Origin: a virus
Strand: one strand, 5' to 3'
Virus record (IMG/VR): IMGVR_UViG_3300035698_003803
Location: 1 to 23,081 of that record
Length of the DNA stretch: 23,081 nt
How positions within the stretch are numbered: the stretch's first letter is position 1; every line of letters starts with the position of its first letter. Of this stretch, positions 20,220 to 23,081 are shown one piece after another. Position numbers and translations under genes: made by a program. The notes beneath the pieces were generated by a model. It did not search any database, was not told the DNA's origin, and saw only the letters and a program-made list of their open reading frames with translations.

Positions 20220-23081
20220 CTAATCCTTTTGGTAAACTTCGTGTTCCCAACCTGCGGCCTTGATTGGCCACCACGGGCACCACGCTGGGTTCTCAGCCAT
20301 AATGGCGCACATCTCATCGATTGAGCCACGCCCGTAAGGCACTTCGCTGATACCCTCATCGTGGGTGTGCATCGCTACAGGGTAGCCGTAGCTTTCTAAC
20401 CTAACCAACGCTTCGGCCTGAATGTCCGCGCCAACAGCTTGGCAGATGTTCTCGAATAATCGACCGCCGTAGGTTTGCAAGATGTGCCACCCTACTGCAC
20501 CTTTTTGGGTGTTACTGTTCCAACCTTCGAACATTATCTCGTAGCAAGGGCCGCGCTTAAGCTTATCGTCACCGTCGACTAGGCGAGGGCGATGGTAGGT
20601 TAGGAAGCGTCCTGAAGGCAAGCGGCAATACAGTATGTCTTCTAGAACATGGTATGTGATGTCGATGTAGGTGTAATGGCACCCAGGGTTCAATATGGCC
20701 ATGATTGCCATGCCTTCGAGGCCATGTAGCTCTGGCTTAGCGTTCCAAGGCTTAGGGCCTATCTGGCGGAACTGCCCTCCCCACATTTCGACTATCTCAG
20801 GGCTAGCTGCGCGCCATGCGATTATTTGCTGCTTAATCTCCTCGTCGGTGCCCTCTGCCCCGAAAGCCTTGTAGGCTCCTATCCAACCGCCGTACCCTGA
20901 GTTGTGGACCAGCAAATGTCCTGAGTCAGTTTTAATCGTGAACCTGTGTCGTGGCCCCGCATTTGCAATGTCGTAGACGTCGTTCAAGCTCGTCGATTCG
21001 CTTTTGCATCTCGACGATAGTGCGTTTGTTGAGATTGTTCTTGCGTTTGGTAATAAAGCGGATATTGCCCGGCTCATAACCCCTTTCGTTATTGATTCTA
21101 TCCATTTCCAACTCGGGAACATCCCACCCTTCGAGGTCCCTGGCGTGGAGCAGGAAATATCTCGCCCCTTCTTCTCCCCGCCAAGCGTCGAACACTTTGA
21201 TGCCCCTGCCGCCGTAGTTGGCGTACTGCTTGCAGTTAGGACTGTGGCACCTTGTGATAGCTGCGCGTAGTCTGTTGACGAGCCTTCTGCGGTGCTCGAT
21301 GTCGGGCATAACGTCGGCGTACTTTGAGTAGAGTTTGACGTAAGTTTCAGCGCTTTTCTTACGACCGCACTTAGCGCATCTAGTAGCCTTCTTTTTATGG
21401 AGATTAGACAGGGACACGAAGTAGGGTTCCCCACCGCAGGAGCATCGCACTTTCGCACCCCTGTCTTTGCTCGTTCTTTCAGGGCACACGACGGTAAGTT
21501 CGCCGAACCTGTCGCCAGCGCAAGGCTCAGCGTACTTGGGTTTGAAGCGAGTTTGCTTGCCTCCACCCACGAACCGTTCAAGCTGACCGGATGGTCCGGG
21601 GTTACTCGCACACCGTCCAATTTTATCGTTTCTCTTTTTCCCTTCGGCACTACCCCGTCGCTCGTCACCCATTCTACACCATCCCATAAGAAGTCCCTGT
21701 AATTGACCTCCACCATTCGCACATACCCCCGCTTTGTCAAAACCTGAGTATCGTGGGTGAAGCAAGCTAGTTCTGCAACCTTACCTATTTTCTTGCGGTC
21801 TGAGTGGTCGAAGCCATTGTCTTTTTTATACTGCATATAGACGTCGAGAGGCGTACCTGTAATCGTACTGGCTGACATTTCATATATTTTTCCGTGAGTG
21901 CTGAAAACGTCAATTCGCCATTGGCACCGCGATAGACAGGCCGCTATTACTGCTTCGATTGCAGAGAAATCACAGCAAATAAAGCGGGTACCTTCCTTGG
22001 CTATGAAAAGCCCACGTAAACAGCCGCAGAGCAGTGTGGCGGGGTCGCCCCATACCTGTTCGATATAACTCAAACGGTTGTGTATTAAATCGTTCTTAGC
22101 GTCCATGACGGCTTCAACCGTCCAATCGTTCATCTTATGGTACATAGTGGAGCCGCACCTAGGGCAGCCCTCGCCTATAGGGTTGAAGTGTTTGTTACAG
22201 CCCTCACACTTCGCTGACTTAGGGCCTTTAGCCGTTATGTTCTGCAGCTGTACCCCCCCTGCAGACCATCGGCCTGTACGGTCGGCACCACAGTAAGAGT
22301 ACTGGTCGCGAAGTCTACCGTCACTAGATATTCGTAGCAGCAACGTAGGTATCTTTTTGATATTGGCGCTCGCTAATATGCTGCGAATCTCTAACGCCCT
22401 ATAAGCGCTTGGGTCCCGCTGCAACCTGCGTTCGTAGTGCCCTGCGTCAAGGTCGTGCATATCTTCGGTAGTTACGCGCCCGTTAGCGGCCCATTGCTTA
22501 GCTACCTCCCACCCTTTGAGAACCTCATCGACAGTATCGGCCGTCATGTCCACCATGTAAATGTCTCTTGTCTCCAACCACTTGCCTAGCGCCGCCACCT
22601 TAGAGGCGCTGTCTACTGCGCCCCCGGTTATATGCTTAAGCTCAGCCACATATTGGACGAACATCTCGTCCATAATTCTCTGCATTGCGTCGAGAGCCAC
22701 TGTGTCAACTCTAACGCCCCGTGCGTTGATTGTTTGGTCGGTAAGCCATGTCTGCCTCTCGTAAGGCGTTAAGTCGGGTATAAGTGCAGCTGCGTTGTCC
22801 TCAGCACGCACGTCGTCCGCGCAGTAACTGTAAAACTTGACGTAGTCATCCCATGCGTTACTGAAATCCCAATACGGTAGGGGCCTATTCTTTGTTGCTG
22901 AAATGGGTCGGGTTAGTTTGTTAATTAAACGGGTACCCTCTTTATCCTTAGGAGCGGTGCCTAGTACCTTAGCTGCGTTAGCTAGGCCGCCAGGCATGCT
23001 GTGACGTCGAGACTTGGCCATGGCACAATAACACTGGTTAAGCTGCAAAGGTGGCCAGCCGAACTGGCGAACGCAAACCAT
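20220..23081 (-). CDS. Family A DNA polymerase with intein, 5' end outside window
   Basis: The frame is open to the right edge (953 residues visible), and the first visible Met is unlikely to be the start. The visible part begins near the end of the 3'-5' exonuclease domain: FYSYCADDV (22811-22832) holds the Exo III YxxxD motif. The polymerase domain follows: motif A in FICCDFSAIEA (near 21961-21990), motif B in DRKKIGKVAELA / SGYGGWIGAYKAFG and motif C in AMHTHDEG (HDE at 20355-20363). Between palm and fingers lies a zinc ribbon, CEGC...CPRC (22149-22210). Motif B is split by an intein of 288 codons, so the mature enzyme would form only after splicing. It replicates the phage genome. The operon runs leftwards. 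Confidence 0.92.
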   Translation of the reverse strand: MVCVRQFGWPPLQLNQCYCAMAKSRRHSMPGGLANAAKVLGTAPKDKEGTRLINKLTRPISATKNRPLPYWDFSNAWDDYVKFYSYCADDVRAEDNAAALIPDLTPYERQTWLTDQTINARGVRVDTVALDAMQRIMDEMFVQYVAELKHITGGAVDSASKVAALGKWLETRDIYMVDMTADTVDEVLKGWEVAKQWAANGRVTTEDMHDLDAGHYERRLQRDPSAYRALEIRSILASANIKKIPTLLLRISSDGRLRDQYSYCGADRTGRWSAGGVQLQNITAKGPKSAKCEGCNKHFNPIGEGCPRCGSTMYHKMNDWTVEAVMDAKNDLIHNRLSYIEQVWGDPATLLCGCLRGLFIAKEGTRFICCDFSAIEAVIAACLSRCQWRIDVFSTHGKIYEMSASTITGTPLDVYMQYKKDNGFDHSDRKKIGKVAELACFTHDTQVLTKRGYVRMVEVNYRDFLWDGVEWVTSDGVVPKGKRETIKLDGVRVTPDHPVSLNGSWVEASKLASNPSTLSLALATGSANLPSCALKERAKTGVRKCDAPAVGNPTSCPCLISIKRRLLDALSAVVRKALKLTSNSTQSTPTLCPTSSTAEGSSTDYAQLSQGATVLTASSTPTTAAGASKCSTLGGEKKGRDISCSTPGTSKGGMFPSWKWIESITKGVMSRAISALLPNARTISTNALSSRCKSESTSLNDVYDIANAGPRHRFTIKTDSGHLLVHNSGYGGWIGAYKAFGAEGTDEEIKQQIIAWRAASPEIVEMWGGQFRQIGPKPWNAKPELHGLEGMAIMAILNPGCHYTYIDITYHVLEDILYCRLPSGRFLTYHRPRLVDGDDKLKRGPCYEIMFEGWNSNTQKGAVGWHILQTYGGRLFENICQAVGADIQAEALVRLESYGYPVAMHTHDEGISEVPYGRGSIDEMCAIMAENPAWCPWWPIKAAGWEHEVYQKD
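20901..21764 (-). mobile_element. Intein (288 codons) inserted in polymerase motif B
   Basis: The N-terminal junction is ELA / CFTHDTQVLTKRGY, with Cys1 at 21764-21762 (block A). Block B is GVRVTPDHPV. Block F is NDVYDIANAGPRHRFTI, and the end is LLVHN / SGYGG: penultimate His, Asn288 (20903-20901) and Ser as +1 nucleophile. All residues needed for Cys/Asn splicing with a Ser +1 are present. The middle 190 or so codons in the intein frame are Ser/Thr/Ala-rich and match no endonuclease or splicing motif. An HNH gene is read there in another frame. Splicing would restore an intact O-helix. Confidence 0.9.
20932..21687 (-). CDS. HNH homing endonuclease encoded out of frame inside the intein
   Basis: This gene is read in the -1 frame relative to the polymerase-intein frame. 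The first open codon (TTG 21765) lies in the intein start; ATG 21687 has AGGGA 6 bases upstream and is my choice (251 residues), while GTG 21570 is another option. The recognisable protein starts near KPKYAEPCAGDRFGELTVV, followed by two Cys pairs (VRCSCGG, RCAKCGRKK). The HNH core then reads RCHSPNCKQYANYGGRGIKV and ELEMDRINNERGYEPGNIRF, with KNNLNKR. A coiled coil (EMQKRIDELERRLRH) ends it. This is the phage YGGRGI-type HNH endonuclease. It would cut inteinless polymerase genes and so spread the intein. It overlaps block F of the intein. Confidence 0.8.
   Translation of the reverse strand: MGWCRMGDERRGSAEGKKRNDKIGRCASNPGPSGQLERFVGGGKQTRFKPKYAEPCAGDRFGELTVVCPERTSKDRGAKVRCSCGGEPYFVSLSNLHKKKATRCAKCGRKKSAETYVKLYSKYADVMPDIEHRRRLVNRLRAAITRCHSPNCKQYANYGGRGIKVFDAWRGEEGARYFLLHARDLEGWDVPELEMDRINNERGYEPGNIRFITKRKNNLNKRTIVEMQKRIDELERRLRHCKCGATTQVHD

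Follow-up and report, generated by a model that had tools for sequence, protein, structure and literature searches.

Out-of-frame HNH endonuclease insertions have been described in phage methylases, where the ShiLan domain leaves the host open reading frame (ORF) open and comes without a splicing domain (PMC11855218). Canonical mobile inteins have their endonuclease in frame. In contrast, the element analyzed here, in the DNA polymerase gene of a virus record (IMG/VR IMGVR_UViG_3300035698_003803; the window, 23,081 nucleotides), appears to encode its endonuclease as a separate protein, in another frame and with its own start and stop, while the polymerase frame over the same nucleotides is filler. 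The element is very probably a mini-intein that hosts an overlapping, separately translated homing endonuclease gene; we infer its splicing, internal initiation, cleavage and homing from sequence and structure models. The same data show its architecture and conservation, the selection in both frames, the empty site and the predicted HINT fold.

Head and tail genes are also encoded in the window, a virus record of 23 kb. Its polymerase is a single ORF (23081-20220), open throughout, and does not have the two-ORF layout of a split or fractured gene. It has PHROG DNA polymerase matches with E 9e-67 and 2e-44, and its N-extein shows a weak match to Pfam DNA_pol_A. A whole-polymerase query against viral contigs gave no matches; tblastn with the polymerase led to intein-bearing relatives. 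The features of the polymerase frame are as follows (pLDDT, predicted local distance difference test).

20220..23081, minus strand: family-A DNA polymerase ORF with a contiguous intein; frame free of stops, 5' part lost at the contig end.
20901..21764, minus strand: predicted intein of 288 residues, from Cys1 at 21764 to the terminal Asn ending at 20901; blocks A, N2, B (TPDH), F and G aligned with 24 relatives.
21486..21764, minus strand: N-terminal splicing half, residues 1-93, with blocks A, N2 and B; pLDDT 95-98; invariant C1, T6, T55 and H58.
21000..21485, minus strand: intein middle in the polymerase frame, residues 94-255 (162 residues); unconserved, predicted disordered, pLDDT below 50.
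20901..20999, minus strand: C-terminal splicing half, residues 256-288, with blocks F and G and the end VHN; pLDDT about 96-97; invariant D265, H287 and N288.

The intein corresponds to residues 440-727 of the polymerase ORF. It starts with CFTHDTQVLT, ends with GHLLVHN followed by Ser+1, and is inserted between Ala and Ser in the region of polymerase motif B. The residues listed as invariant are so in all 25 aligned inteins (the window and 24 relatives), with an unconserved middle; the +1 residue, Ser in the window, is Cys or Ser in the relatives. An AlphaFold model built from the intein alignment shows a HINT domain, both halves having a pLDDT of about 97. Nearly all Foldseek matches to this model are inteins or hedgehog/HINT domains, led by the DnaX mini-intein 7cfv. 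An empty site is provided by the polymerase of Pseudoalteromonas phage PY6, which is 69% identical over both flanks; in this comparison of polymerases with and without the intein, a check suggested in the initial annotation, the alignment is gapless across the splice junctions. With Cys1 in block A, TxxH in block B, a penultimate His, a terminal Asn, a suitable +1 residue, the HINT fold and an intein-free allele, the window element is a class-1-type intein, predicted to splice itself from the polymerase.

The second frame of the same DNA is described by two features.

20932..21672, minus strand: nested HNH endonuclease ORF of 246 residues, from ATG 21672 to TAA 20934-20932; frame -1 relative to the polymerase (offset +2); PHROG 374.
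21022..21135, minus strand: predicted beta-beta-alpha metal core of the HNH protein (LEMDRINN..YEPGNIRFITKRKNNLNKR), from DSSP of the model; invariant D191, R192, N203, N212 and N215.

This frame is free of stops through the whole intein up to the TAA at 20932. The ORF matches PHROG 374, 'HNH endonuclease', with E=1.6e-34, the best among the PHROG HNH-endonuclease families; a Pfam search did not recognise the HNH. Its model has a mean pLDDT of 80.7, with order starting near residue 41 (about 21550). With the HNH amino acids and local codon usage taken as given, 9.2 stops would be expected in the polymerase frame over the 246 HNH codons, and there are 0; the probability of such an open frame is 7.5e-6, of similar order to the rough 4e-5 estimated at the outset for 212 codons. 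The initial annotation had also described intact splicing blocks A, B, F and G, a featureless middle in the polymerase frame and a convincing HNH endonuclease in the -1 frame of the intein DNA, all of which agree with the invariant residues, the HINT fold, the disordered middle and the PHROG match.

IMG/VR was scanned with three HNH groups, and public phage records of relatives were added. An HNH ORF inside a longer ORF of another frame was found at 110 loci, and 108 were retained; the survey was seeded from these nuclease groups, and such counts do not measure a fraction of all inteins. Two candidates flagged by ORF geometry (L050 and L084) were dropped because they have no intein blocks. Both intein ends are present in 103 of the 108 nested loci; these 103 form 70 clusters at 90% nucleotide identity. 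The HNH frame has offset +2 (equivalent to -1) throughout group I, to which the window belongs, and +1 in groups II and III. The other HNH groups match the PHROG HNH profile with E values from 5.6e-22 to 6.2e-59, and the A2 (group II) HNH profile shows a weak match to I-HmuI (1u3e, E 0.14).

Selection acts differently on the two frames. Over the 108 nested loci the host frame contains 0 stops, compared with an average of 12-19 in the third frame; free-standing HNH homologues have 5-13 stops in each other frame. A polymerase-frame stop in relatives, which would have spoken against the initial annotation, was thus not encountered. For deduplicated pairs of groups I, II and III, respectively, the omega-like ratio is 0.16, 0.08 and 0.16 in the HNH frame and 2.42, 2.67 and 1.75 in the host frame. 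A host-frame ratio above 1 is expected when the overlapping frame is constrained. HNH-synonymous changes should have created 6.5, 12.9 and 17.7 host stops in the three groups (about 37), and 0 are seen, as anticipated by the suggestion that selection keeps the polymerase frame just stop-free. The two frames are therefore in opposite regimes, the endonuclease being kept as a protein under purifying selection and the intein middle drifting and merely kept open. Decay of the nuclease is also seen: two inteins of 168 and 124 residues at the same polymerase site have lost most of the HNH with the host frame kept (L215 and L217), and L108 and L075 combine a broken HNH frame with an open host frame.

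In the mechanism we propose, translation of the polymerase frame would yield an intein whose HINT splicing domain is complete but interrupted by a meaningless linker of about 160 residues, and this intein would excise itself from the polymerase. Reading these nucleotides one base back would give a free HNH-type endonuclease, ribosomes binding internally at a Shine-Dalgarno (SD)-like site within the intein coding sequence and initiating at ATG 21672. The endonuclease would cut intein-less polymerase alleles and so drive homing, and selection would maintain it as a protein and the host frame only as a stop-free one. An HNH role other than homing, such as cutting competing phage genomes that have no intein, would also fit an enzyme specific for intein-less polymerase genes and under strong purifying selection; we consider it unlikely, since the decay or deletion of the HNH in some inteins suits a homing cycle.

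Two candidate starts of the HNH ORF were compared.

21677..21685, minus strand: SD-like GGGATGGTG upstream of ATG 21672, inside the intein's conserved WDGxEW block; duplex energy -7.7 kcal/mol, enriched group-wide.
21568..21570, minus strand: alternative GTG start of the HNH ORF; alignment column with GTG, TTG or ATG in several relatives; weak SD.

Most group I loci have their first suitable ATG overlapping the WDGxEW block, with a GGGATGGTG-like sequence ahead of it, and many group III loci have an AGGAGGT-like sequence before the HNH start. At the best HNH start, the duplex energy reaches -6 kcal/mol or lower for 90% of loci in group I, 83% in group II and 83% in group III, against background expectations of 32%, 21% and 16%, respectively. 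These signals favor internal initiation, most likely at ATG 21672. The initial annotation had placed the HNH between GTG 21570 and the stop at 20932; the stop stands, and ATG 21672 with its SD-like GGGATGGTG is the likelier start. It seems improbable that the HNH is instead made as an intein-N::HNH fusion through -1 ribosomal frameshifting. A canonical slippery heptamer, GGGAAAA, does lie upstream of the HNH core in the polymerase frame of the window (approximately 21637-21643), but such heptamers are present at just 3 of 31 group I loci, the window being one, and are not conserved in relatives. Within the intein, most loci have a stop in the HNH frame upstream of the HNH itself; groups II and III would require +1 shifts, and the enrichment of SD-like signals at HNH starts again argues for internal initiation.

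The nested HNH inteins have a scattered distribution and occupy several host genes. Vibrio phage 97.13, Pseudomonas phage MR14, EBPR siphovirus 2, Dhillonviruses and Jerseyviruses share with the window the group I HNH, its frame and its polymerase site. That site holds a different HNH, read in the +1 frame, in Streptococcus phage Javan107 and Gardnerella phage AB1. A third kind, also +1, occurs in a second polymerase region of APSE phages, Caulobacter phage RLK and Shewanella phage SFCi1. Group II inteins also occur in SNF2-type helicases (L118 and L126) and in L115, whose host protein reads as terminase-like and has no family match. In the HNH tree, nested loci form one clade for group I (support 0.20), one for group III (1.0), and two for group II with free-standing HNHs between them; these clades point to three or four separate associations of an HNH with an intein. 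The layout is stable within each HNH clade, which does not bear out the 'intermediate' proposed in the initial annotation.

Several individual loci deserve mention. The codons for the final His-Asn of the intein contain the HNH stop in L020, L021, L027, L028, L034, L035, L037 and L042. In APSE-7 (L011, LR794149) the polymerase is annotated as partial, 'missing a large internal portion', and holds a complete intein with a hidden HNH. L185 (3452-5334) has the HNH, the C-terminal intein half and the C-extein, the N-terminal half being absent from the locus; its HNH ORF is joined to an upstream sigma-like ORF, and it could be a split derivative or a product of recombination or assembly.

Two further explanations bear on these records. 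A group I intron carrying an HNH ORF is very improbable as an explanation of the element: the Sodalis phage SO-1 record (NC_013600; L006, gp38/gp39) states 'type I self-splicing intron', but an Rfam search at the gathering threshold over nine sources, including SO-1 and the window, returned no intron match, the intein blocks are intact and the host frame has no stops. The possibility raised in the initial annotation, that paired compensating indels or sequencing errors displaced a formerly in-frame HNH, is refuted and retains a negligible probability. An indel in an older SETP3-type assembly (L036, 40793 bp) joins intein-N to the HNH in frame and disrupts the polymerase ORF, but this ORF is intact in the current SETP3 record (NC_009232.2). 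The offset is identical in 35 of 35 group I loci and, in groups II and III, constantly +1 wherever the intein is present, across divergent phages; 16 of 17 bacterial-genome loci are nested, three on complete chromosomes, and purifying selection acts on the HNH frame. L036, the only in-frame fusion encountered, is an isolated indel; no intact in-frame HNH intein, the arrangement that would have contradicted the initial annotation, was found among the surveyed loci.

A similar architecture was observed with a different nuclease. In the SNF2 helicase of L118, the +1 frame of a second intein (L118:1090-1971) encodes a protein matching Pfam DUF559 (E 1.6e-5), a Vsr-like fold. DUF559-type nucleases are likewise hidden at offset +1 in helicase inteins of MR14 (L239), Vibrio phages including CP-T1, and Corynebacterium phage phi673 (L240-L243 complete the set); about 40 phage records match this nuclease, with nesting checked in five. 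Pseudomonas phage MR14 thus has two nuclease-hiding inteins, with the HNH kind in its polymerase and the DUF559 kind in its helicase. These helicase inteins are a fourth group and represent a second nuclease superfamily in the same architecture.

Some observations weigh against the interpretation of the nested ORF as an independently translated, active homing endonuclease. All 25 aligned rows have Arg where the first catalytic His of an HNH is expected, and catalysis may be unusual. A fold search with the HNH model returned noise and no convincing structure. The SD-like sequence sits in a conserved protein block and is possibly in part incidental, and the omega-like ratios come from a simple counting method on isolated substitutions alone.

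The arrangement represents a genuine type of mobile element that has evolved repeatedly and gone largely unnoticed. Mobile inteins probably have repeatedly put their homing endonuclease in an overlapping alternative frame, with at least two unrelated nuclease superfamilies, giving stable two-gene inteins whose start signals come from splicing-domain codons. If true, this would account for many inteins recorded with splicing domains and no endonuclease; many inteins with no visible endonuclease may be mobile after all. Uncoupling homing from the splicing polypeptide would let the nuclease be expressed, evolve and decay alone while splicing is kept. The loci would also provide an unusually clean natural overlapping-gene system, replicated in at least three groups, in which constraint acts on one frame as a protein and on the other just against stops. 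Since Dhillonviruses, Jerseyviruses and many Vibrio phages carry nested inteins, cultured phages allow direct testing.

In the literature covered, apart from one preprint that may overlap (doi 10.1101/2025.01.02.630785), no description of an out-of-frame endonuclease inside an intein was found. The records of relatives that were inspected annotate either the intein (Ent1) or an HNH called an intron (SO-1), and none joins both. The polymerase inteins of Jerseyviruses and Dhillonviruses (Ent1 mat_peptide 'intein', Pubbukkers, SO-1 gp39) are of group I, at the same site and with the same offset.

The 'new type' of the initial annotation, a contiguous intein with a nested out-of-frame endonuclease, holds in substance, given the 103 complete homologues, the PY6 empty site and the opposite selection regimes; its published precedent lies outside inteins, in the out-of-frame ShiLan HNH (PMC11855218). 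The ShiLan domain/Pacc40 insertion of actinophage methylases (PMC11855218; Applejack gp54/gp55, PMC12613952) shares the nested out-of-frame HNH, the contiguous open host ORF and a disjunct distribution. It is also reported to end in TAAC, comparable to the HNH stops within the last His-Asn codons of eight loci. Unlike ShiLan, which is reported to have no splicing domain, the present inteins have a HINT domain. Homology between the present HNHs and the ShiLan domain was rejected, since Applejack gp55, a ShiLan-type HNH, has no detectable similarity to these HNH groups; the Applejack host protein is likewise unmatched to these inteins.

Fractured genes with split inteins share a separate endonuclease protein encoded between the intein halves, but here host gene and intein are contiguous and trans-splicing is unnecessary. 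The fold of the splicing halves matches that of mini-inteins (Spirulina DnaX, 7cfv; gp41-1, 6qaz), from which the present inteins differ by about 160 extra disordered residues, present because another gene overlaps. With canonical mobile inteins they share the HINT domain, a conserved active-site insertion point and an endonuclease at its usual place between blocks B and F.
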